DNA of 64,000 nucleotides. Origin: Allomyces macrogynus ATCC 38327. Lineage: Eukaryota > Blastocladiomycota > Blastocladiomycetes > Blastocladiales > Blastocladiaceae. Below are positions 1,116 to 21,000 of this stretch, piece by piece. The position numbers were made by a program, and so were the translations under genes. Position 1 is the stretch's first letter, and every line of letters starts with the position of its first letter. A model generated the notes under the pieces. It worked only from the letters and a program-made list of their open reading frames with translations. It was not told the DNA's origin and searched no databases. The stretch is taken from NCBI GenBank assembly GCA_000151295.1, contig GG745329.1, positions 2,147,880 through 2,211,879 of the forward strand. The letters are read 5' to 3'.

Positions 1116-3287
1116 CTACGTCTCGTCGTCGTCACCCGTCGAATACAAGTGCCGCGCCGGCTCGGCGTCCGTGAACCGCACGCGATTCACCGTCCGCTGG
1201 CCGCCAGTCGACATCGTCGACGGCGGAGTCGGTGGGTAGTGCGCNNNNNNNNNNNNNNNNNNNNNNNNNNNNNNNNNNNNNNNNNNNNNNNNNNNNNNNN
1301 NNNNNNNNNNNNNNNNNNNNNNNNNNNNNNNNNNNNNNNNNNNNNNNNNNNNNNNNNNNNNNNNNNNNNNNNNNNNNNNNNNNNNNNNNNNNNNNNNNNN
1401 NNNNNNNNNNNNNNNNNNNNNNNNNNNNNNNNNNNNNNNNNNNNNNNNNNNNNNNNNNNNNNNNNNNNNNNNNNNNNNNNNNNNNNNNNNNNNNNNNNNN
1501 NNNNNNNNNNNNNNNNNNNNNNNNNNNNNNNNNNNNNNNNNNNNNNNNNNNNNNNNNNNNNNNNNNNNNNNNNNNNNNNNNNNNNNNNNNNNNNNNNNNN
1601 NNNNNNNNNNNNNNNNNNNNNNNNNNNNNNNNNNNNNNNNNNNNNNNNNNNNNNNNNNNNNNNNNNNNNNNNNNNNNNNNNNNNNNNNNNNNNNNNNNNN
1701 NNNNNNNNNNNNNNNNNNNNNNNNNNNNNNNNNNNNNNNNNNNNNNNNNNNNNNNNNNNNNNNNNNNNNNNNNNNNNNNNNNNNNNNNNNNNNNNNNNNN
1801 NNNNNNNNNNNNNNNNNNNNNNNNNNNNCAGGCCAAATCGGGCGGTGCAAGCTAATCTGCGATACGTTGTACCCCGGTGGGGCTGCTGCGCGAGACTGAT
1901 GACCGACGACGACACGTGCGCGCCGAGCTGACGCTGCAGCGTATTTTGTCGGCATTTGACGACGTCCGGCTGCTTGCGACCGACGCGGATGGGATCCGGC
2001 AGCTTGCCCGTCACCCTGCGGCGTCAGGGTTCCCGAGCCCCACGCGGGGTTCGGCTTGGTGCCGAGCAGCGGCGCGACCGCGGCACCGTTCCCGTGCCGC
2101 CCCGTCGGCGTTGGCGGCACGTACGACGAAAAATCGATGCTCGGGAGCGCAGCGACAGGTCGACCGGGATCAGCGGGACCGACACTCGCGGTTTTCCCGC
2201 CGCCCGCGTGGCCGTGATGCGCGCCTTGCCGGAACGTGGTCGCCACACCGCCCTGCGGACCGCGCCCGCCGCTACCGTAGTGACCAGTCGCAGCCCCGTC
2301 GGCGTACGCTTGCTGGAGCGCGTACTGCTCCTCTTCGACGCGCATCTGCCGCTTGGTGGCCATGAGCGCCGTGATGCGCTTGTCGACCATGTGGCACACG
2401 TACTCCTTCAAGTTGCCGCGAATGCGGTAGAGGAGCGGAATGTACATGACCGCGGCGGCAAGTGTCGAGAGTGCGTTGATCACAAACATGGTGAAGACAA
2501 ACGCCATGGTCACGACACCAAACTGCTTGGTGAGCTGCTGCACGCCCGAGAAATACGATATGAACCGGTAAATGTCGAAGGCGGCCAAGAACTGGGCCTC
2601 TTGCCGGACCGACGCGGTCGGGTTCAGTTCGCGGAATTTCTTGAGATCGTCGCTAGTGGGCTTGCCCATTTGCGTGATCTGGTACCAGAGTAGCAGTGCG
2701 GTGACGGCGTGACGCGGTGCCTCGGCAAAGAGCAGTCGCTTCCACCCCTTGAGCTGGAAAAACACAAACTGCGCAATCTGGTCGGACGTCTTGTGATGCA
2801 TGCGAATTTCTTGGAAAAAGCACCAGTGCGCAAACGATCGCAGGCAGTAGTACCGGTAGGCGATCACGTCGGTGAACGCAAACGAAATGTCGTGCGACTT
2901 GATGATGCGGCGCGACTTGCGCATGTCGTTGGCGAGCAGCAAGAAGGAGACAATAATCGACCCGACATAGACCCACCGCAAATTGTCGGCCAAGTTGTGG
3001 TAGGTTGACGGCGACACGCCGAGCTCCTTGGCCAGGTTCGCGTTTTTCACGATTTCATCTGGCGACTTGGTCGACCATTGGTTGAAGAGAATGATGAGCA
3101 TGGCCGTCGACACGTCGGCCTGGTAGACGATAAACGACCGGAACACGTCGAGAAACAGAAATGTGTACCCCATGTACGACCAGCAGTCGTTCATTTGGTA
3201 CTCTTCGACGCCGACAAAGTCCCACTTGTGGTCGAGCACCTCCTCGCGCTTCCAGTTGGACTTTTTCGCAAACCTGAAGCAACTCAT
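1116..3287 (-). CDS. KCH1: Kch1/Prm6-family low-affinity potassium transporter (contains assembly gap)
   Basis: The start chosen is ATG at 3287 (MSCFRF), where similarity to the fungal Kch family begins. That family is known from yeast as plasma-membrane proteins for low-affinity K+ influx coupled to Ca2+ signalling. Seen: N-terminal Cys, then DHKWDF, helices around FLFLDVFRSFIVYQADVSTA and VYVGSIIVSFLLL, the motif AYRYYCLRSFAHWCFF, FFQLKGWKRLLFAEAPRHAV, and further helices (FGVVTMAFVFTMFVINALS). A basic, Gln/Gly-rich cytosolic tail follows and runs into 584 N's; beyond the gap the same frame resumes for ~40 residues to a stop at 1116. Frame continuity through the N's, and any intron near the gap, cannot be verified. 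It is divergent from the 7-helix gene at 4833. Confidence 0.7.
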   Translation of the reverse strand: MSCFRFAKKSNWKREEVLDHKWDFVGVEEYQMNDCWSYMGYTFLFLDVFRSFIVYQADVSTAMLIILFNQWSTKSPDEIVKNANLAKELGVSPSTYHNLADNLRWVYVGSIIVSFLLLANDMRKSRRIIKSHDISFAFTDVIAYRYYCLRSFAHWCFFQEIRMHHKTSDQIAQFVFFQLKGWKRLLFAEAPRHAVTALLLWYQITQMGKPTSDDLKKFRELNPTASVRQEAQFLAAFDIYRFISYFSGVQQLTKQFGVVTMAFVFTMFVINALSTLAAAVMYIPLLYRIRGNLKEYVCHMVDKRITALMATKRQMRVEEEQYALQQAYADGAATGHYGSGGRGPQGGVATTFRQGAHHGHAGGGKTASVGPADPGRPVAALPSIDFSSYVPPTPTGRHGNGAAVAPLLGTKPNPAWGSGTLTPQGDGQAAGSHPRRSQAAGRRQMPTKYAAASARRARVVVGHQSRAAAPPGYNVSQISLHRPIWPXXXXXXXXXXXXXXXXXXXXXXXXXXXXXXXXXXXXXXXXXXXXXXXXXXXXXXXXXXXXXXXXXXXXXXXXXXXXXXXXXXXXXXXXXXXXXXXXXXXXXXXXXXXXXXXXXXXXXXXXXXXXXXXXXXXXXXXXXXXXXXXXXXXXXXXXXXXXXXXXXXXXXXXXXXXXXXXXXXXXXXXXXXXXXXXXXXXAHYPPTPPSTMSTGGQRTVNRVRFTDAEPARHLYSTGDDDET
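1245..1828. other. assembly gap (N run)
   Basis: 584 consecutive N's inside the C-terminal coding region of the Kch1-like gene. The true length is unknown. Confidence 0.99.
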
Positions 3288-4832
3288 GGCGGTGGACAAT
3301 GTCGCGGTCGCAGCAATAAGGCAGTCGATGCAAAAATGACAGCGTGGGTGCGTCCGGCGCGGCCACGGGGTCGAATCAAAAGCGATCGGCGGGCAGGCCA
3401 CGAGCAACGCGATCGCAACGAGCGTGCACGCCGGAAGATCGGAGGTGCGGTCGCAAACGTCGCCGCAAAAGCAACGTCGGAGGTCCCTGGAATGGCGTCG
3501 TGCAGCGTCGATGCGGCAGGCAACAGCAGTCCTAGCCGTGATCGTGGTCGTCGCACGGGGAATCGCAGCCGTGGCCAATGGGATCGCTTGCGCCGAGCAG
3601 ATGGTAGAATGCTTTTGCAGCAGTATCAGCGCAATGGGGCCGAGCAATCATGGAGTGGCGACGGCGCGCCAAGGAGAGGGTGGTGCTTGTGGGCTCCGCT
3701 GAAGCCGCCAGACCAGGAGGTTGTCGCGCGTGCAGAGACTGTTGGCAGAGCGTGGCAGCAACCCAAGAAAGGTGGGAGAAGAATGGGACCAAGGTCAGCC
3801 AAGACCGAACGATGCTCCATGCTTGCTCGCCCAACTCTCGCTCTGTCGATGACATGGGTATGGCGTGACGTACCGACAGCACAATGACCAAACTTCGGCA
3901 GTCCGTCGGCCGCCCGCGGCCACGCTGATCGTTGGACTGGTCGTCGTCAGTCACGACGGCACCAACCACCCTGGTCGCTGGCCAGGCTTGTGCTCAACGT
4001 CACGGCGCGCCAAGGACAATAACGGTCGGGACTGCGAGCGCTGTTCGGGCTTCAAAATTTCCGCACGTGCTGGCGGTGATGGCTGCTGCGGAAGTCCTAG
4101 CGATGGATGACTGCGGTAAAGATACTGCAGCTCGTTTGTTGCTGGCCAAGTGCACTCGGGGAGCGGATTCGTGTTCCGCGCGGTGCGTGCCGCCGGCTTG
4201 CCAGATTTGCAGCGGGTGGAGGTTGGTCAAGAGGCGATTCTCGGTCGAAAGGGCTCAACCGCGGTCTATTCGGGGTCGAGCGTCCAGTTGGTGAGTGGCC
4301 GTGAGCGGCAAGCCTGCGGCCGCTCTCCTTCCTGTTCAGCGGAAACTGCGGGGGAGCGGTTGGTCGGCGGAGTCTCACCAACAACTCTGTGATCGCGGCT
4401 CAGCGCGCGGGACAGCGTGACTTGCACGCCGTTACCGCGACGCGTCTCCCAGCCAGGCCGGCTTGCAGAATCCCGCGCGTCAGAGCGTGTCAGAACGTCG
4501 CCTTTGATCACGGCCCGGTGCGGCCCGCTTTTCCCTTGCGGCCCCCGGCTTGGCCTGTGCAAAGCACGTCCACGGCCCGGCTCGTTCCATGTCTGCGCCT
4601 GCCTTGCGTTGCTGTCATCCGCATCGTCTGGAATGCGCGCGAGAAGACTCTTCTCGGCGCTCAAGAACACGATTATCCTCCTCACTCTCCGCTCTCCGCA
4701 CGACCCAAACCACCCTTGCGTTGTCCCGCTCTCTTCTCCTTAACCCCTCTGCTCTCTCGGGCTCCTGACCCCCTCTCAGTCTGGCAACCAGCCCCTCAAC
4801 CCCGCCTCGACCACCCCCGATCACGCACAACC
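3288..4832. promoter_or_regulatory. 1.5 kb divergent intergenic region
   Basis: Separates the divergent Kch1-like (minus) and 7-helix (plus) genes. Open frames in it show no recognisable domain. The stretch just before 4833 is C/T-rich (4690-4790), as expected for a 5' leader. No clear TATA box was seen. Confidence 0.4.
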
Positions 4833-6311: not shown

Positions 6312-9300
6312 TCAAGTCGGCGCCCGGCTCGTCGACTCGCTCGACCCACCTCTCCGCTCACCGCCGACGATCGTCAAAGCGTTGTCTCCCGTGAGGCCAC
6401 CCGCCGCCGTCAGGCTTGGTCGCTCGGCATGGCTCACCGTCGCGCGGCGTCGTTTCGTTGATCGTCCCGTCTCGACGTCAATCTGCAGCACGGGAGCGGC
6501 AAAAGTTGTGGTGATCGCGTGCACCCACCGCCGAGCCTCGGCAGCGTCGCGGGACTGAACGACTGACGCGCGCGGCTTGGATGACGACGAATCCGTCATC
6601 AGGATGAATCGGTCCTGGCCCGTGGGTGGACTTGGTTGACCAGGCCCTGGCAGTGCTGGCTGCACAGCGCGGGCTTCGACGCCGCACCGGATTGCGAGGT
6701 TGTGCGGGCGCATGGTCTACGTCGAGGGGGAGCCGCCGGTCAGGTCGTCATCCACGGAACAAGAGGAAAGTTTTCAACGTGTTGCGCACCCACGGGTCCC
6801 GATCGAGCACCAGCAGCGTCCGCAACGGAGGGATCAGCACGAGCGTGACGGCCTGCCACGGCGTCCACCACCACGCGTGTGCGGGGCGCAAGCCAAAGTG
6901 AGTGCCGACAAGTATGGGGAGCCGGCACGCTACCGAGTGCGAAATAGTCGCCTCGCTTCCATGCCATTCGGTGACGACGGTCCGGACGGCGGCGGCCATG
7001 GTCTCGTCCGAGACGTGGGGACTATTGGCCATCATGGCCCCGTCGAGCGCAATGCCGCTCGACAGGTTGCGAGTTTCAATCCCGACGTCCTCGAGGCTCG
7101 CGTTGACGAGTTTGGTCAGGGCACCGACAGCGTCCACCCCGCCACCGCGTCTGCCAGAACAGGTCGACGCTGCCATGGGCGTGCGCGTGCCAGAACGTCG
7201 TGCACGCGACACCAACCCGAGCAGAAATTGGCTCGCGGCGCCCGCTGCAAGGCCAAGCGGACGCAGCGATATGGCGGCGGAGCCGACGAGCAAGCTGAGC
7301 AGCGCGATAATTGTGCTGGAAAACACGACCAACAACGGGTCAGCGACCGTGGCTTGAATTGCGGCCACGAATACGGTGGGGAGCGTAACGCTCGCGACAG
7401 CAATCATGGTCACGGTCGACTCGTTGTTGAGCATGATAAGCGACCGGATCCGGTACGCGAGGTACAGGACGACGCCGGCGAGCACCCAATGGTAGAGCAG
7501 AGCGAGGCCCGTGAGCGCGACTTGCGCGGCCGCCACTTGTCCCAAGTCCGTCAAAAACCCGCACCGATACGTGAATTTGGACGCACTGGCCGGTTGCTGC
7601 ACGGGCTGCGGCAACGTGGCCGAAAGCCAGACCGAGATGAGAAGAGCGTCGAGTGCGAGTATCAAAGCGCCGAGCAGCGCGAGGTGCTTGTTGCTCACGT
7701 TGAGCCGAAACAGCCGCCCAGCGACGACGAGCGAGAGCCGCAAGTTCGAGAAAATGTAGAAGACGCGCCACGTCTTGGCAAGGAGCGCAATGAGCACGAC
7801 ACCGAGTCCCAACGCCGACACGGCCGTCTTGGCCGTGCAGACGGGTGCGCTCAGCGCATTGGCAAACATGAGGTCCAGCGCAGTGCCAATCCCGCCCGCA
7901 AGCGCTCCGAGATTGACGGCCGCGACCACGGCCGGCGACTGGATACGAATCAACGGATCGCTGCGGAAGCACACGAGGCTGACGAGCGAAATGCAGTTCG
8001 TGACGACGAGCATGGCTAGCAGAGCGAGCGAAAAGGCAAGCCACGAGGTCTTGGCCGAGGTCAACTGCAATGTCTTGACTGGAGGAAAGAGTGAAAGAGT
8101 GTCAGAACATTGTGGCCAACGCGATCAAATGCAATCCATGGAAAACGTCGCGCCATAGTCGCTTGGCGGGAGCGGAATCCATGATCCCCAAATGTACTCA
8201 TGCTCTCGAGTCCATTCGCACGCAGTTCCGGCTATTGTGCCAGCGTCAGGGAGAGCCGACAGCATCTCCACAATATCCGTGTCGCGGAGGAAAAAATTGA
8301 GCAAGAGCGAGTGCACGGGCGGAACACGCTGCTTGATGGATGCCGAGGCCGCCTTTTGGAGCACGTCCGTCTCCCAATCGCAATTCCACGAAGTCGAATT
8401 AGACGGCGCAACCGACTGATTGAATGCGGCCATGCAAGGGAACGTAGCCGGCGGGAAATGGACCGGTTGGAGCAAAAAGCGGCTCGGCAGCGTTTCTGGT
8501 ACCCAGTAGAAGAAGAGACATGTCGAGTTGCTCGACTGGTGCTCGATGCACGCCGAGACGGTCGGAATGAATGCCGGGCCGAGGTATACGACAACAAGCG
8601 GCAAATTAAAGTCGAGGATCCGCTGCTCGTTCATGCCTGGGCTGTAGTCGGGCATGACGTGCCAGAGCTCACGACACGACGAGTATGCGGCACCTTGGCA
8701 CTGCGGTGGAACGTACTCGCCGTTCTGGCAGTACCACAGGCTGCACAAGTACGATCCGTCCAATTTGCGCTGCGGTAGTGTCGAGCCGGCGCGCGGCAAG
8801 AGTTGGAGCAAATTCGGGTCGCGCATCGATCCCCACGACGAGAAAATGATGTTCGGATGCAGGTCGGCAATGTAGGCCGGGAAATACCACGAGATGCGGC
8901 CCACGTAGCCGAGGGCGCCGGTCATGGCAATGAGCTGCTGCTTGATAACGAGCTGCAGGAGCCGGAATGGTCAAACATATTCTCAACGATCACCTTATCC
9001 CAGCAGCCACGCACGACGGCGCTAAAAGAAATGTGTGCACACCTCGCGAATCGCAGCGGCCTTGTTATTTGGCCAAATTTCGAGAGAAGCATCGACCTTG
9101 CCGGCAGCGAGCCGAGAAAAAGTCGCAAACTGGCCCGGGTACTCGACAACCGTCACGTCAATGGCCAACACCTCCCGGATCAGGAACGTTGCCACATAGG
9201 TGGAGAGGATCGAGCTTGATGCGCCGGCAACTTGGTTGAGCTCCTGGCGCTCCTGGCGACGAACGCGAGCGAATATGACTATACCCACCTCGACCAGCCC

Positions 9301-9566
9301 GACGCCTCGATGACGACGCCAGGATACTTGCGCCGGACCGTTGTTGCAGACTCTGGGACGGCCCAGCCGTACTTGGCCGTCACGGCCGCGTCGAGGCACG
9401 ACGGCACGGCTCGAATGGTTTGCGCTGTTGCGGACGAAATGATCCTGGTGTTGCTGCCAATCGCGACCGCAACGGCAAGGACAAATAGAGCAAAAATCGT
9501 TTGGATAGGTCGCTTTTGGCGCCGTCGAGAGCGACGCGATAAGCTTGGCGCCTCGCCGATCATCAT
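6312..9566 (-). CDS. OpuAC-type solute-binding domain fused to class C (GABA-B-like) 7TM receptor with PH-like tail
   Basis: Start ATG 9566 (MMIGEAP), then a basic stretch and signal anchor (ALFVLAVAVAIG). Exons solved: 9566-9289, 9214-9043, 8952 to about 8130, about 8092-6790, 6716-6312; introns 9288-9215, 9042-8953 and 6789-6717 are GT-AG and the first and last are also visible in the duplicate copy. The exon 3/4 junction near 8090-8130 is unresolved (phase mismatch with the obvious GT). The N-terminal ~380 residues match bacterial OpuAC ligand-binding proteins for glycine betaine/choline/proline: STYVATFLIREVL, YPGQFATFSRLAAGKVDASL, GYVGRISWYFPAYIADLHPN, CLFFYWVPETLPSRFL. Exon 4 has seven helices with class C landmarks: RSDPLIRIQSP, Cys before TM3, LAKTWRVFYIFSN, SNKHLALLGALILALD, LNNESTVT. 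The tail ends like a PH domain (DAAEARRWVHAITTTF). Role inferred: plasma-membrane sensor for a betaine-like osmolyte, signalling through a G protein. Overall about 990 residues. Confidence 0.75.
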
Positions 9567-10109: not shown

Positions 10110-13100
10110 TCAGCCACCCGCCGTAACAGCTGATGCGCGACGCCTTGTCGTTGGTCGTGCCGTCTCCACCCCAGGTTGCGGCAACGCGGGAGAGCCAAAG
10201 GTGGCGGTGATGGCCTGCACCCACCGCCGCGCCTCTGCGGTGTCACGGCACTGAATGACCGACGAGTGCGGCTTGGACGACGGTGGGTCGGCAATGAGAA
10301 GGAAGCGGCTCTGATCCGACGGTAGGCGTGCTTGGCCGGGCCCTGGTGGTGCCGAAAGTACAGCGCGGGCTTCGACGGCGCGGCAGTACGAGGTTGCGCG
10401 TGTACGTGCTCTCTCATCATTTGAAATTGGGTCAGACCGTGACCCGCACAAGCAAGATAAAAAAGAGACAACAGCTCAAAGCACTCAAAGCGATACACAC
10501 CCACGGGTCACGGTCAAGGACCAAGAGCGTCTGCAACGGGGGAATCAGCACGAGCGTCACGGCCTGCCACGGTATCCACCACCACGCGCGTGCGTCGCGC
10601 CGGCCCATGTTCGTGCAGACGAGCACGGGCAGCCTGCACGCAACCAATTGCCGGACGACTTTGCCGGTCCCGTTCCACGCGGTCGCAAAGGCCAGGACAG
10701 CCGCAGCCATGTTCTCGTCCGAAGCACCAGCGACGGCGGCAAAAATGGCGTGGTCCCCGGCCTTGCTGCCATATTTGTCACGCGTCTCATGCCCCACGTC
10801 CTCGAGAGACTCATTAACGAGCTTCGTGAGCGCGCCGAATGCGTCTCCGCCGCGCCGGCTGGTCCCAGCGGCCGAGCTCACCGTCAACTATGTCCCGCGC
10901 ATCTGCGCCGCCGCGCGTGCCACCGGCCCAAACAGCACCCGACTTCCGCTGTTCTCGGCAAGAATGAGCGGGCACAGCGACATGACGACGAACCCGACGA
11001 GTTGGCTGAGCAAAGCAACAATCCCGCTATCAAACACGAACACAAACGGGTCGGTAGCCAAGACTTGAATTGCAGCAACGAGAACGGTGGACAACATGAT
11101 GCTCGCCATGGTGACCAAGGTCACGGTCGATTCGTTGTTGAGCATGGCGAGCGATCAGATCCGGTGCGCGAGAAAGAGACCGACGCCGGCGAGCATCCAG
11201 TGGTAGAGCATCGCAAGGCGAGCGTGATTTGCGCAGTCCTGGCCCGGCCCAGGTTCATGCACGACCGCACCGGTACGTTAACGCCGTTGTGCCGGTCGTC
11301 TCCTGGACGGGGCGCGGCGACACTGACGAGACCCAGAGTGAGACAAGCAGCGCATCGAACGAGAGGATCAGAGCGCCGAGCAGCGCGAGGTGCTTGTTGG
11401 TGACGTTGAGCCGGAAAACCCGTCCAGACATCACGAGCGAAAGCCGCAAGTTCGCGAGAACGTAGAACACGCGCCAGGTCTTGGCGAGAAGAGCGGCGAG
11501 CGCAATGCCGAACTCCAACGTCGACATGGCCATTTTGGCCGCGCAGACAGCTGGGGTCAGCACATTCGAGAGTATGAGCTCCAGCACGCTGCCAATGCCA
11601 CTCTTCATCGCCCCAAAGTTGATAGCCGCAACCAAACCCGGCGACTACAAACGGATCAGCGGATCGTCGCGGAAGCGCACCAGGCCGGTCAGTGAAAGAA
11701 GGTTGGCCACGACGAGCAGAGCAACTAAAACAAGCGAAATCGCAAACGACGAGGTCTTCGCAGAAATCGGCTGCCATGTCTTGACTCGATGCGACAGAAA
11801 ATAGTGTGAGCACGTACACTCACGGTGGAACAACAAGAAAGCAGTGCGCACCATAGTCACTTGGCGGCAGCGGAATTCACGACCCCAAAATGTCCTCGTT
11901 CGCGCGCATCAATGCACACACGCCGTCGCGGCCGTTTCGGCGGGATCCGGGAGCGCCGAGAGCATCGCGACAATGTCCGTGTCGCGGACGACAAGGTTGA
12001 GCAGATTCAAATACGCGAGCGGGACACGCCGCTAGATGGATGCCGTGGCCGCCTTTTGGAGCACTCCAGTCTCCCAATCGCATCTCCATGACGTCATATT
12101 AGACGGCGAAATCGACTGGTTGAAGGAGGCCATGCACGCGGACGTCGCCGGTGGGAAATGAAAAGCCTGGAGCGGGTACCGACTCGGCAGCGTTTCGGGA
12201 GCCTAGTAGAAGAACAGACACGTCGAGTTGCTCAACTGCCGCTCGATGCACGCCGAGACGGTCGGAATGAAACTGGGCCGAGATACACGACGACGAGCGG
12301 GAGGCCATAGTCGAGAATGCGCTGCTCGTTTCGTGCCCGGGCTGTATTCGGGCATGACGTGCCAGAGCTCACGACACGACGAGAATGCGGCACCTTGGCA
12401 CGGTGGCGGAACGTACTCGCCGTTCTGGCAATATCGCGAGCTGTGTAAGTATGAACCGTCAGGTCTGCTCTGCTGCGACGTCGTGCCAGCGCGCGGCAAG
12501 AGCTGAAGCAGGCCTGGGTCGTGCATCGACCCCCACGACGAGAAGATGATGTTCGGATACAGGTCGGCAATGTAGACCGGGATGCACCACGAGATGCGGC
12601 CCACGTAGCCGAGAGTGCCGTACATGCCGACCATCTGCTCCTTGAGAAGGAGCTACGGTTCCTTGGATTGGTCAGTTGCGTTCGAATGCTGAAACCATGC
12701 CTGCAGGCACGGCGGCACGGAAGCAACAATACCTCGCGGATCACGTTCCCTTTGTCATTTGGCCAGTTTTCAAGAGACACGTCAAAAACGCCGCTGGCAA
12801 GACGAGACAGAGTCGCAAACTGCCCCGGGTAATGGACGAGCGTCACTGGCGAGGACTTGCTGAACGAGTAACGCTAGCAAGTAGGTGGAGAGGTTGGAGC
12901 TGGAGGTTTGCAAACATTGTTCAGCCTTGCGCCGCGTACTGCTGGCCAAGATTGCGACTTGTTGTACCAACCTGGACCAACCTGCGCCTTCAAGGACGAC
13001 ACGATCGTACTTGCGCCGAATCGTCGACACAGATTCCGGTACGGCCCAACCGTACTTGCCCGTCAATGACGCGTCGAGGCATGGTGGTACGGCGCGAATG

Positions 13101-13240
13101 GTTTGCGCTGCAGTTGGCACGAAGCGACTCGTGTTGCAGACCAGCAGGATAACGAGCACGAGTGCAAGCAAAACGACTGTTGTTCGGGTACGTCGTCGTC
13201 CCCGGCGAGGACGCAACAATGGTTGGAGCATCCATGATGA
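10110..13240 (-). pseudogene. decayed tandem copy of the OpuAC-class C receptor
   Basis: Same domain order and strand as the gene at 6312-9566, and clearly homologous at DNA level, including intron positions (intron 1 near 12985-12910; last intron with donor after codon TGG near 10500). Lesions seen by comparison: TGG to TAG at 12203-12205 in the CLFFYW motif; AAG to TAG at 12032-12034; TGG to TGA at 11877-11879; CAG to TAG at 11645-11647 in the RDDPLIRLQSP equivalent; TAG at 10888-10890; a 1-bp insertion near 12330 compensated near 12270; and a frame break near 11255-11150. Class C marks remain (LLAKTWRVFYVLANLRLS, NVTNKHLALLGALILSFD, LNNESTVTLV), as does the PH-like tail (DTAEARRWVQAITATF). 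The lesions rule out a normal full-length product; truncated products are possible but unsupported. The exact 5' limit is uncertain. Confidence 0.8.
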
Positions 13241-14909: not shown

Positions 14910-17420
14910 TCACGAGTTCGACGGCCGTACCATCGTGGCGGGCGGCAAATAGAACCACTCGCCCTGTTGGCTCGCCGGGTCGGAGCGCACGGGCAGGCCT
15001 GGCAGGTAGAGCACGTCCTCTTCCACAGGCTGCGCCACAGGCTTGTGCGGGAGCGTTGCGGCAGGCAGCTGCATCGACACGCCCGAGACGGGCCGCTGGT
15101 TCTCGTGGCCGATACTCGGCCGTACCGGCACCTGTTCCAGACCGTGCACGCCAGCCAGGCTCAGGTACGATTGCGCCGGCAAGAGCGTAATTTCCTCGTC
15201 GGGAATGAGCCACTCGGTGAGCCACTCGTAGCACTGGTCGAGGAACGCCTGCGGCCCACAGACAGCAACCATGACTGACCCGCGGCCCGCGCCGTCGGCA
15301 TACAGCGCCGGCCCCAAGACGCCCGCCGCCTCGAGCACGCTGCGCACGTAGGGCGCCGTCATGCGGCCTTGACTGAGGCCGACGTTGAGCGAGCCGACGT
15401 CGTCGGAACCCGGCGCGGGCATTTGCTTGACGCGGTACTGCACGCGCACTTGGTGCGGGTACGCGTCGGCGACGAGCCCAAGCGTCGACCGGTTCATAAT
15501 GGCGCCGACATCGGCCTCGGCCACAGCCACGGTCATGCGCGGGTGCTGCCCGATCCACGGTGCCAGGCACCGCAGCGGCAGGTACCCGTCCGTGTGCGTG
15601 CGCAAGTTGGTACCCCACACCCACCCACGCTCGAGCGCGTGCCGCACAAGCACCTTGTCGCGAGGCTGCACGGTCAGTTCGTGCGCCGAGGTGCCGGCAA
15701 ACGAGGACGTGGCCACGAGAGGGAAGTAAGTCGGCAGGTGCGTCCACTGCAGGAGCTGCAACGCCGGTGCGACACCCGACCCGGCACAGAGCATGACGAG
15801 CGTGTCCCAGCACCCGTTGCCGCGCGGCAGCGGGTGTTCCGGGTTCATGAACGGCGTACCAAACGGCCCACGGATCTGGAATTGGCGCGCGTCCTTGGGG
15901 TCGAGCCCGGCGAGAATCGTCGACATCAACCCGCCCTTGACGACCTTGAAACTGATATCAAACTTGGTCATGTTGCCCGCGAGCGGCGTGTAGTATCGCG
16001 AGATCCAGCCCGACGCGGGCACGTCGCGGTGGAAGTCGCCGGCGCGCCGCATCGTGCCGGTCCGCTCGCGCTCGCGCTTGGCCGCAGCCATGATGTTCTT
16101 GGGCACGCGAATCCGAATCTCAATGACGTGGCCCGGCAAAAAGAAGGATGGCTCCTCGGGGTAGGCCTCGTGCGGGAACAGCAAACAAAATGACATCTTG
16201 TACGAGACGACAGCCGACGATGGCGCCGTGATGCGCTCCTTGCCGACCATAGCATACCGGCGGTACTCGTTCTTGTCGAACCGCGAAACGTCGCGCGCGT
16301 CAAGCCGCGCGACAGCCATGGTCTTGAGCTTCTCAATGGCTACCTTGGAGTGCACGTTGGTGCGGCGACTCTGCACAATCAATTGCCAGTCCTGTTCCGT
16401 GAGCCGAGCGCGCGCCTCGACATCAGCGTCGCGCGCCATGCCTGCGGGCCCCATGGTCGTCGAGACCGACGACCGCATCGACATGTAACTCGGATTAACG
16501 CGCATGTCGCGGTCGGGCACATCGAGCGGCGCCGGGGCGAACGCATGGAACCGCGCTTGGTCAAAGAGCGCAACGTTGAAGTAGTCGATGATGACCGACG
16601 TGCCCATGGCATCAAACAGGACTTGCTGCCCGCCCGGGTGCGCCGTGATCCACTGCTTGACGTCGTAGACGACACCGCCGGGCCCAACGACCCACTGCCG
16701 CGCATTGGTTACGATTTCGTGGTCAAAGTCGGACCACGTGAGGAGCGGCAGGTTGGCCTTTTCGGCAGCCATGGCGGCATCGGCTGCGGCTTTTTCGGCG
16801 AGCGTCATGGACGACGAGGCCGTGGGCAAGAATGTCGCCATGGCCTCGTCGTTACCCCCGACGCGTTGCGCACCGCCACCGCCGCCGAGCTGCATCGCGC
16901 GCGCCTGGTGGTAGGCAAACAGCGACGTCCAGAGAATCAGGGACACGTAGTAAGCGAGCCAAAACGGGTGCCAAGTGTGCTCCGTAAACGTGTAGACGTG
17001 CGAAATTCCCTGCGGGATGTTGATGAACCCGAGCAGCATCAAGAGCACGCCCATGCTGCCGTGCACGCGGCGCGCAATGGGGCGCAGGCGGTGCAACTTA
17101 GGGTTCGACGAGAGCGACTGGAGCGAGAAAAAATGCGAGCCACCACCGAGCATTTGCAAGACGACGAGGGCGAGGATCGTATAACCCCAAAACCGGTGCT
17201 GCCGCTTGCAGTTCACTTCGTTGAAGAGCACAAATGCGCCGGCGAGAAGCACGACCATGGTCGAGAATACCTGAGAGCCGGCATGGACAGCGAGCCGGTT
17301 GGATGCGTCGCGGTAGTAGCGCGCGTAGAGCGCGGCCGCGGGCAGCAGGTAACCCCAGCACACGATCATCATGATCCCGTGCGCCAAAATGGGCGGGTAC
17401 GAAAAGTAGTCGGTCGCCAT
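14910..17420 (-). CDS. cytochrome b561-cytochrome b5-NADH b5 reductase fusion with internal SH3 domain
   Basis: Single 836-residue open frame from ATG 17420, no introns. Order: cytochrome b561 module (~1-175; paired helices with His in LAHGIMMIVCWGYL, VHAGSQ, CKRQHRFWGY, RRVHGSMGVL); a cytochrome b5 module (~215-300) with the heme-ligand motif AHPGGQQVLF near residue 259; an FAD-binding b5-reductase domain with RYYTP near 474 and KGGLMSTILAGL; an NAD-binding domain beginning LCAGSGVAPALQLLQW and ending VMVAVCGPQAFLD. Between these, about residues 568-621 read as an SH3 domain (SAHELTVQPRDKVLV, GWVWGTNLRT, GYLPLRCL). The predicted role is transmembrane electron transfer from cytosolic NAD(P)H through FAD and b5 heme to b561 hemes, e.g. 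ferric or ascorbate-radical reduction. Substrate and membrane are inferred. The SH3 would recruit it to a proline-rich partner. Confidence 0.88.
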   Translation of the reverse strand: MATDYFSYPPILAHGIMMIVCWGYLLPAAALYARYYRDASNRLAVHAGSQVFSTMVVLLAGAFVLFNEVNCKRQHRFWGYTILALVVLQMLGGGSHFFSLQSLSSNPKLHRLRPIARRVHGSMGVLLMLLGFINIPQGISHVYTFTEHTWHPFWLAYYVSLILWTSLFAYHQARAMQLGGGGGAQRVGGNDEAMATFLPTASSSMTLAEKAAADAAMAAEKANLPLLTWSDFDHEIVTNARQWVVGPGGVVYDVKQWITAHPGGQQVLFDAMGTSVIIDYFNVALFDQARFHAFAPAPLDVPDRDMRVNPSYMSMRSSVSTTMGPAGMARDADVEARARLTEQDWQLIVQSRRTNVHSKVAIEKLKTMAVARLDARDVSRFDKNEYRRYAMVGKERITAPSSAVVSYKMSFCLLFPHEAYPEEPSFFLPGHVIEIRIRVPKNIMAAAKRERERTGTMRRAGDFHRDVPASGWISRYYTPLAGNMTKFDISFKVVKGGLMSTILAGLDPKDARQFQIRGPFGTPFMNPEHPLPRGNGCWDTLVMLCAGSGVAPALQLLQWTHLPTYFPLVATSSFAGTSAHELTVQPRDKVLVRHALERGWVWGTNLRTHTDGYLPLRCLAPWIGQHPRMTVAVAEADVGAIMNRSTLGLVADAYPHQVRVQYRVKQMPAPGSDDVGSLNVGLSQGRMTAPYVRSVLEAAGVLGPALYADGAGRGSVMVAVCGPQAFLDQCYEWLTEWLIPDEEITLLPAQSYLSLAGVHGLEQVPVRPSIGHENQRPVSGVSMQLPAATLPHKPVAQPVEEDVLYLPGLPVRSDPASQQGEWFYLPPATMVRPSNS

Positions 17421-18028
17421 GTCGGACTCGGCGGCAGACGGATTGGGGTAGCACAGCGCGGCCTTTTGAGCTCTTGAGCAGCTCGACGCGGCTCTTGGTC
17501 TTGCTGGTGGCGTGGAGAGCGCAGAGCGCAGCGACCCGCGCGCTCAACGGTGGTGCAATGCTGCGGGTGGACTTGTTGGCGTCGTGCAGACTGCGAGAAG
17601 TGAGCGTCGAGGGAAAGGGCAGCGCCGTCCGTGTCGCCGTCGTGGAGCGGTCAGGGGGAACGGGTGGCCAAAGCGGCCAGCAAGCAGGGATCGCCGTCGG
17701 TTTTTAGCCGGGGCTCGACCAGGGTGGCGGCTAAGTCATCGTCGCGCGCCGCACCCAAGTCACTTACAACCCCTCACCATTTCCATCTTCAGTCCATGCG
17801 CCAGCGCACCCGCAACGGCCAGAAACGGTGCGTGGAGGCATACGACGCCTGCAGTTTCTACCCATGCAATTTGTTTATCGCCACGCGTCGCCGACCCTGC
17901 TGCTAGTCGCTGGAATCTCGGCCGACTGTCCAATGAGCGTGCACGCGAGGGGCTAAGAGTCAAATGAGACAACAAAAGATCAAACTAGCTATTGAAATAC
18001 ACGTCCCAATCTCAACCCACACATCTCT
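17421..18028. other. intergenic, upstream of the b561 fusion gene and 3' of DHTKD1
   Basis: About 600 bases; presumably the promoter of the b561 fusion and the 3' region of the DHTKD1-like gene. No coding signal recognised. Confidence 0.4.
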
Positions 18029-21000
18029 TTACAGCGCCACCGCCGCGGCCAGCACGGCCGCCTGCTCCTTGCGGTGGATCGCGCCCACGCCCGTCGCGGG
18101 TGCGGCCGCCGACACGCGGCCAATGTACCGCACCTTGTGGGGGACGAGCGCCTGCAGGCGCGGCTCCACAAACGTGTAGGCGCCTTGGTTCTGCGGCTCC
18201 TCCTGGACGTAGCACCAGTCCTTGACGTGCGCAAACTGCGCGACCTGCGCTTGCACTTCCTCGACCGGGAACGGGCACAGCTCCTCGAGACGCACGAGGG
18301 CAATCTGCTGCGTGAGGTTCTTGGCGTCGCGCTCCTTGGCCAGCTCGTAGTAGAACTTGCCCGAGCACACGACGACGCGCTGCACGGTCATGGGGTCGAC
18401 GATCGCCGGGTCGGCGAGGACGGGCTGGAAGGTAGTGCCGGGGCCCATCTCCTCGAGCGTGGAGACGGCCTGCGGCAGGCGCAGCAGCGTCTTGGGGCCA
18501 ACAACAATCAGGGGCTTGCGGAAGTTGCGCACCATCTGGCGACGCAGCGCGTGGAAGTGCTGTGCGGGCGTCGTCGGGAAGACAACGTGCATGTTCGGGT
18601 TACGCGGCAGCTCCGGCTGCGTCGGGTTGAACGGGTCGTTGCACAGCTGCAGGAACCGCTCCATGCGGCACGTTGAGTGCTCGGGGCCCGTGCCGTCGTA
18701 CCCGTGCGGGAGCAGCATGACGAGACCCGACTGGCGCAGCCACTTGGCCTCGGACGACGAGACAAACGTGTCGATGATGATCTGCGCGCCATTGAAGAAA
18801 TCGCCAAACTGGGCTTCCCAGATGGGCAGCGTCTTGGGAGACTCCCATGAGTAGCCAAACTCAAAGCCGAGCACGGCAAACTCGGACAGCGACGAGTTGG
18901 CAATCTCGAGCATACCCTGCTGGCCCGCGGGCGCCATGGCGTTGAGCGGCGTGTAGACGCGCTCCGTCTCCTGGTCGACGAGCATGCAGTGGCGCTGCGA
19001 GAAGGTACCGCGACCGACGTCCTGGCCGGAAATGCGCACGTTGTTGCCTTCGAGCATCAGCGAGCCAAACGCCATGGCCTCGGCCGTCGCCCAGTCAACG
19101 GGCTTGTTGGCCTCGATGCGCTGCGCGCGCGCCTGGATGTGGAACTTGTGCAGGCGCTGGTGCACGTGCATCGACTCGGGCACGGCCACCGACGCGAGCC
19201 CGACCTTCTTGAGCGTGTCGACAGGCACGCCCGTGACGGGCTTGGTCACGGCCTCCTTGGGCGAGACGTAGCCCTCCCACTTACCCTGCAGGTGCGTAGC
19301 TGGTGCCGAGTAAGTCGCGACGGCGTCGAGGTCGGCATCGAGCTTCTTGTACCACGAGTCGCGCAGCGCCTCGACCTCGGTGGGCGAAACAATGTTCTCG
19401 GCGACGAGCCGCTCCTCATAGAGCTTGGGCACCGACTTGCGCGCGCGAATGATCTTGTACATGTTGGGCTGCGTAAAACCGGGCTCGTCGAGCTCGTTGT
19501 GGCCCCAGCGACGGAACGCCGTGACGTCGAGCACAATGTCCTTGTGGAACTTGTTGCGGTACTCGACGGCGAGTGCCGTCGCGTAGGCCACGTCCTCAGG
19601 GTGGTCGCCGTTCACGTGAATGACGGGCGCGTTGATCATCTTGGCCACGTCCGACGAGTAGGCGGTCGACCGCGAGTTGGTCGCAGGAGTCGTGTACCCA
19701 ATCTGGTTGTTGACAATGATGTGCACCGACCCACCGCACGTGTAGTGCGGCAGGTTCGACAGACCGAGCGTCTCCATGACGACGCCCTGGCCGGCAAACG
19801 CCGCGTCGCCGTGCAGCTGCACGCACATGACACGGTCACCGAGGTAGCAGTCCGTCTCCTTGCCCGACTGGAACGCATCCATTTGCTTGGCGCGCGCCTT
19901 GCCCATGGCCACCGGGTTGATCGCCTCGAGGTGCGACGGGTTGTGCAGGAGCGACACGTGCATCGGCTGCTTGGCCTGCGGGTAAGTCAGGTCAAGCGAC
20001 TGCGCAATGTGCGAGAGCACGTCACCCGTGCACACGTCGGCCTCGTCGGCCGGGTACTCGGGCGTGCCCTTGACCTTGGCAAACAACGCCGTCGGGTTGT
20101 ACTCGAGCAGGTCCGTGAGCAGGTTCAGGCGACCACGGTGCGGCATGCACAGAATAATGTCCTTCAGCCCAGCAACGTTGGCCGTCGAGAACAGCGAGTC
20201 GAGCGCGACCATCATCGATTCGGCGCCCTCGAGACCGTACCGTTTGACCTGCGGGAACTTCTTGGTCATGAACAGGTCAAACACCTCTGACTTGGTCAGA
20301 AGCGCCTGGATGCGCTTCTTCTCGTCGGCCGAAAACTTCTTCTTCTCAAACGATTCGACCATGTGCGCAAACCACCGGCGCTCGCTGCTGTTCTGTTGAC
20401 GGTTTTGCAGAGGATCGCGCGTCAGCCATGAACCACATCCGAAGCAGCTTCAACAGTCAGCGAAAAGATAACGTACGGGAATGTGCGCAAACTCGTACGC
20501 GATGCGACCCGCGTACGTGTTGTCGAGGTGCTTGACAATCGTCTCGAGCGATGCCTGCTCGCGCGAAATCGAAGCGTCCGACGTCTTGCCGACATGCAAA
20601 ATACCGCTCAGGTTGAACGTCTGGCCCAGCTTGAGACCGTAGCGAGCGGGATCGAGCTCCGGAATCGTGCTACATCGAGATCAAGCACGTCGAACAATGA
20701 GAAATTTGCTCAACAGCGCCTCAGAGCAATTTTTTCGGACCAAATCGTACGTTTTCGGGCCGTTGATCCCGAGGGGGTCGAGCTTGGCGTACTGGTGGCC
20801 GTGCATGCGGTACGCTGCGACCAGTCGCAGCAAGTTGGCGTTATTGTTGCGGTTCGCGAGCTCCTCGGGTGTGTCTGTGATTTCGAGAATCGGTTCTGTT
20901 CAGTTTCCAGCCCTGATTTGCCCTTCCCATAAACCGATCATGGCCAAACAGTTGAACGTACAATCGGGCAGCTGGAACTCGCGCGCAAGACGGTACCCGT

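Follow-up and report, generated by a model that had tools for sequence, protein, structure and literature searches.

The window analysed here, a 64,000-nucleotide stretch of the genome of Allomyces macrogynus ATCC 38327 (contig GG745329.1), carries on its minus strand, at 9566-6312, a single five-exon gene in which an OpuAC-type binding domain is fused to the seven-helix domain of a class C G protein-coupled receptor (GPCR). The five exons join into an open protein of 980 amino acids, and the ends of the gene agree with those given in an initial annotation of this DNA (6312-9566). The collinear exons proposed there, joining the binding domain to the seven-transmembrane (7TM) domain, are borne out by this one open frame, with both Pfam matches exceeding their cut-offs. 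The features of the gene are as follows:

9289..9566, minus strand: exon 1, encoding a hydrophobic leader and the first part of binding lobe 1; W91 codon at 9294-9296; without counterpart in the deposited model, matched in the likely homeologue and the tandem copies
9043..9214, minus strand: exon 2, OpuAC-type lobe 1; W140 codon at 9073-9075; without counterpart in the deposited model, matched in 4/5 other copies
8154..8952, minus strand: exon 3, remainder of the OpuAC-type domain and a Cys-bearing insert; W300 codon at 8503-8505, Phe298 nearby
8079..8153, minus strand: intron 3, separating the binding domain from the 7TM domain; GC donor
6790..8078, minus strand: exon 4, class C seven-helix domain and cytoplasmic linker
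7291..8043, minus strand: 7tm_3 (PF00003) profile match
6312..6716, minus strand: exon 5, end of the weakly PH-like tail and C-terminus

Gene model and deposited counterparts

In a protein search, 80% of the predicted product aligned with A. macrogynus AMAG_01758 (P0002, 821 aa), at 100% identity. The deposited model begins within exon 3 and exons 1 and 2 are absent from it, so that it is missing most of the first binding lobe, and a Pfam scan of this model found no OpuAC match. On comparison with other copies, the two additional exons, which would encode the first lobe, are supported: exon 1 is matched without stops in all five other copies compared (only partly in locus L037) and exon 2 in four of the five, L037 yielding none, while the stretch encoded by both is also present in the full-length Blastocladiella emersonii protein P0012. 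A second A. macrogynus protein, AMAG_04252 (P0004), is 80% identical to the window protein over 80% of the query and is the likely homeologue of AMAG_01758.

Three intron positions are common to the window copy and four other copies, and the exon 3/4 junction joins DY to VK, as it does in P0002. The donor of intron 3 is GC in the window gene, versus GT in all four other copies compared. An earlier splice between exons 1 and 2 was dropped in favour of an alternative which removes an insertion relative to the related proteins and raises the OpuAC score from 31.7 to 35.2 bits.

Domain composition of the predicted receptor

The spliced protein contains an OpuAC match at residues 84-184 (PF04069; Bitscore: 35.2; curated cut-off: 21.2; e-value: 1.4e-8) and a 7tm_3 match at residues 429-679 (PF00003; Bitscore: 57.7; curated cut-off: 33.5; e-value: 1.8e-15), as the initial annotation had expected of both profiles. 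A profile-profile alignment with bacterial relatives (24 in the bacterial profile, comprising 23 of 58 fetched loci and P0017) gave a probability of 98.65 at 15% identity and spans positions 27-365 of 365, showing that both OpuAC lobes are present. In the relative P0012, Pfam OpuAC is matched in two stretches, the best at profile positions 123-256. PF01094, the LIVBP/ANF-type outer domain, had no match in the window protein at an e-value of up to 0.5, and no NCBIfam match was found at up to 0.01 in any of the four relatives scanned. When scored alone for OpuAC, the open reading frame containing exon 2 reached 11.4 bits, and an exon-blind PF04069 search of the genome reported three other places, the window gene not being among them; as a control, this search gave matches in 7/14 named genomes.

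A profile built from six receptor domains matched six sequences in the PDB at an e-value of up to 1. Five of the six are named as binding proteins of the betaine or choline type; the sixth, 7ahc, is named as a permease subunit of an ABC transporter. The top matches were 4xz6 (e-value: 1.9e-14) and 7yle (e-value: 1.5e-13). With P0012 alone, 15 sequences were matched at the same threshold, led by OpuAC 2b4l (e-value: 3.4e-5) and followed by GABA-B2 chains (e-values: 0.0088-0.014), with the remainder likely to be chance matches.

Two motifs which had been taken as GABA-B hallmarks, LAKTWRVFYIF and NNESTVT, are both present in the 7TM region. The class C seven-helix fold is apparent from the 7TM domain of a relative, which best matches GABA-B, CaSR and mGlu structures, tied within 1 Z. 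The best 50 Foldseek and best 50 VIA matches are receptor entries, with GPR156 first in Foldseek, and there is no binding-protein entry among them. G-alpha genes are present in the A. macrogynus genome. The PH-like tail proposed in the initial annotation has weak support. Weak PF00169 (PH) matches occur in all five tails scanned (best e-value: 6.6e-5), and the P0007 structural model places strands and a final helix in a low-confidence tail; the match in the window protein itself falls below the cut-off (Bitscore: 12.7; cut-off: 25.1; e-value: 0.19), and a tail profile found no match in the PDB.

Distribution of the receptor family

Grouping of 50 domain matches places the OpuAC-type domain at 19 loci in the A. 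macrogynus genome, 18 of which adjoin a 7tm_3 match. The nineteenth (C56) stops at an assembly gap, a 7.3-kb run of N, and its reading as a different fusion lacking a 7TM domain was rejected on this ground. Exon-level 7tm_3 matches number at least 130 in this genome, versus none in the 14 control genomes. At locus L042, a single 795-codon frame holds the 7TM domain together with most of lobe 2, which argues against two separate genes. The domain is furthermore joined to 7tm_3 in deposited proteins from three species of Allomyces and from Blastocladiella and Catenaria (the last partial, with the second lobe), and the taxonomic survey suggested in the initial annotation thus recovers relatives in all three genera as single proteins. 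Judged from these sequences, the fusion of an OpuAC-type domain to 7tm_3 is real.

Contigs C74 and C70 carry matching receptor clusters, each with four loci, a pattern that fits homeologous chromosomes. Two receptor loci on C41 (C41:304412-305435 and C41:318119-319142) have identical match scores, reflecting either duplication in the very recent past or an artefact of the assembly. Among the deposited models, P0001 (A. javanicus) and P0003 (A. arbusculus) contain two 7tm_3 stretches each, and are probably merged neighbouring genes.

Candidate ligand-contact residues

According to the covered passages of the structural papers (PMC8918994 / PMC10030565), 4xz6 is TmoX, a bacterial binding protein for trimethylamine N-oxide (TMAO) with a cage of W55, W102, W177 and W222, and 7yle is DmpX, a bacterial binding protein for dimethylsulfoniopropionate (DMSP) with a cage of W35, W84, W152 and W202. 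W91, W140 and W300 of the window protein align with three of these four cage tryptophans. Excluding two plainly broken loci, the W300 position is Trp in 17/17 loci and the W140 position in all 16 aligned of the 17. In the broken loci, one stop falls at W140 and one at W300; of the two remaining readings, that at W300 is Trp and that at W140, in the broken window copy, is a misplaced alignment.

Close to W300, position 298 separates the receptors into groups. It is Phe in seven loci (those of the window cluster and of its counterpart on C70), Ile in one (L037) and Tyr in 11/19 (on C8, C33, C41, C53, C56, C57 and C75), while both residues occur in Blastocladiella, with Tyr in P0012 and P0015 and Phe in P0013 and P0014. 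The equivalent residue is Phe in TmoX and Tyr200 in DmpX, where it is the very position at which replacement of Tyr by Phe abolishes DMSP binding (PMC8918994 / PMC10030565).

Selective constraint

The ratio of nonsynonymous to synonymous substitution rates (dN/dS) relative to the likely homeologue is 0.68 in exon 1, 0.30 in exon 2, 0.18 in exon 3, 0.32 in the 7TM domain, 0.17 in the linker and 0.56 over 75 tail codons. Among the four cluster copies, dN is 0.12-0.16 in exon 3 versus 0.28-0.32 in the 7TM domain at similar dS, and by this estimate the exon 3 part of the outer domain is more constrained than the 7TM domain. The stronger constraint suggests that the copies may have a ligand or a dimer interface in common.

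Proposed function and alternative explanations

On balance, and with somewhat better than even confidence, we favour the explanation that the product of the gene is a class C GPCR in which the OpuAC-type domain would close on a betaine-like osmolyte and thereby switch the 7TM domain to activate a G protein. This explanation sets out from the order of the domains, the gene model and the family matches, together with the aligned tryptophans, the Blastocladiomycota relatives and dN/dS values below 1. As three of the four cage tryptophans align, the compounds sensed by the receptor would likely be betaine-like, a betaine-like osmolyte being the best guess at the ligand class. The receptor would presumably lie on the cell surface, where closure of the two-lobed domain around its ligand would switch the seven-helix domain and activate the G protein, as in other class C receptors, and it may serve in solute sensing by zoospores or hyphae.

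Several observations weigh against this explanation. The Pfam OpuAC match in the window protein spans lobe 1 only, and OpuAC scores above the Pfam cut-off in 8/17 proteins scanned, seven of the nine misses being deposited models without all or most of lobe 1. The mean AlphaFold pLDDT (predicted local distance difference test) is 36.7 for P0012 and 50.7 for P0007, with the binding domain at low confidence in both. The fourth cage tryptophan (W177 in TmoX, W152 in DmpX) falls at the receptor insert and cannot be aligned, and the position of TmoX E131 and DmpX E113, ligand-contacting in both, is Ile170 in the window protein (Ser in 2/19 loci). As the TmoX glutamate, Glu131, binds the TMAO oxygen (PMC8918994 / PMC10030565), its replacement by isoleucine makes TMAO itself an unlikely ligand. 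Of the 19 loci, 15 align at the W91 position and four do not; 13 of the 15 read Trp there, two of these 13 belonging to broken copies and several to weak matches. L037 has Arg instead and L042 has Phe, the latter probably through misalignment. W300 is replaced by Arg in A. javanicus P0007, and exons 1 and 5 are under less constraint (dN/dS 0.68 and 0.56). Finally, the binding domain contains 13 tryptophans in 364 residues, with eight invariant Trp columns across six aligned rows; since Trp is this frequent, shared tryptophans alone are weaker than they appear, a pointer and not a proof.

A broader proposal, which we advance tentatively and hold at less than even confidence, is that this Blastocladiomycota GPCR family senses extracellular betaine- or sulfonium-type osmolytes by a tryptophan cage like that of bacterial OpuAC proteins, with two ligand classes distinguished by Phe (window clade) or Tyr at position 298. 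Provided that the cage is functional, such receptors would illustrate a way for a fungus with swimming cells to detect the osmolytes around it, and would demonstrate that another binding-protein fold is able to drive a class C 7TM domain. With a purified domain, the ligand reading is directly testable at the three tryptophans and at the Phe/Tyr position.

The best-surviving alternative, unlikely though worth serious consideration, is that the same fusion receptor binds another ligand, such as an amino acid or small peptide, and that the tryptophans serve the fold. The exchange of the ligand-contacting Glu of TmoX and DmpX for Ile, the insert in place of the fourth-Trp loop and the resemblance of a relative's 7TM domain to GABA-B, CaSR and mGlu structures would all fit such a receptor, and known class C receptor ligands include amino acids. 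It accounts less readily for the three aligned cage tryptophans, two of which are Trp in every aligned unbroken locus, or for the PDB profile matches, which are osmolyte binding proteins or transporters. It is improbable that the binding domain has lost ligand binding and acts as a dimer partner or surface domain, for which GABA-B2 beside GABA-B1 provides a model. The tandem, partly decayed copies would be compatible with such a loss, as would the slower evolution of exon 3 than of the 7TM domain, which a shared interface might produce, but the W140 and W300 cage positions remain Trp without drift. A split into two adjacent genes, one with the binding-domain exons and the other with the 7TM exon, might be suggested by the GC donor of the exon 3/4 intron and by the failure of the exon-blind search to report OpuAC here. 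It is extremely improbable and was set aside, since the deposited P0002 already splices exon 3 to the 7TM domain, L042 carries most of lobe 2 in one frame with the 7TM domain and the deposited Allomyces, Blastocladiella and Catenaria relatives are single proteins.

Comparison with known systems

The GABA-B, CaSR and mGlu receptors carry a two-lobed outer domain of the LIVBP type. AMAG_01758 resembles them in bearing a two-lobed outer domain on a class C 7TM domain, but its outer domain is of the OpuAC type. TmoX (4xz6) and DmpX (7yle), the best PDB sequence matches of the receptor outer domain, share three of four cage tryptophans with it; they are described as serving ABC uptake (PMC8918994, PMC10030565), whereas the AMAG_01758 domain is fused to a GPCR, contains an extra insert and has Ile replacing the ligand-contacting Glu. 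Class C receptors of Dictyostelium likewise have a binding-protein outer domain, there BMP, which belongs to Pfam clan CL0144 while OpuAC belongs to CL0177 (PMC3251606).

The initial annotation was correct that a zoosporic fungus here has a class C GPCR bearing an OpuAC-type domain, but not in presenting it as an undescribed system. In A. macrogynus, Krishnan et al. (2012) counted 78 class C receptors and found OpuAC in six of them, namely AMAG_01750, 04252, 14324, 14326, 15836 and 17562 (PMC3251606), and the receptor kind was therefore already known. These receptors share the genome and domain pairing of AMAG_01758, which is outside their OpuAC list and, by term search, is not mentioned in the main text; the passages covered contain no discussion of an OpuAC cage or ligand (PMC3251606). 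AMAG_01758 is thus an added member of a known OpuAC receptor kind, with a corrected gene model, and what is new comprises the first-lobe exons, the count of 19 loci, the Blastocladiella and Catenaria relatives and the three aligned cage tryptophans. Among the literature matches listed, only PMC3251606 links OpuAC to these receptors, and the cage reading was not found; nor did the titles and abstract openings listed in narrow searches include a GPCR responding to glycine betaine, DMSP or similar osmolytes.

Two further receptors, AMAG_01751 and 04246, were labelled LysR_substrate by Krishnan et al. (PMC3251606). Both (P0009, P0010) fall in the same receptor family as AMAG_01758 by protein search, and neither deposited protein has a LysR_substrate match at an e-value of up to 1, so the label is probably a misreading of the OpuAC-type domain.

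Neighbouring features

Further features on the same strand of the window are as follows:

1116-3647, minus strand: KCH fungal potassium channel (PF16944; e-value: 1.3e-52)
10131..13207, minus strand: second tandem receptor copy, a pseudogene with several stops and frame changes
14910-17543, minus strand: large open reading frame with a cytochrome b5-like domain (e-value: 1.3e-5)
18029-20449, minus strand: 2-oxoglutarate dehydrogenase E1-like gene

The second copy on the matching contig, C70, is likewise broken.
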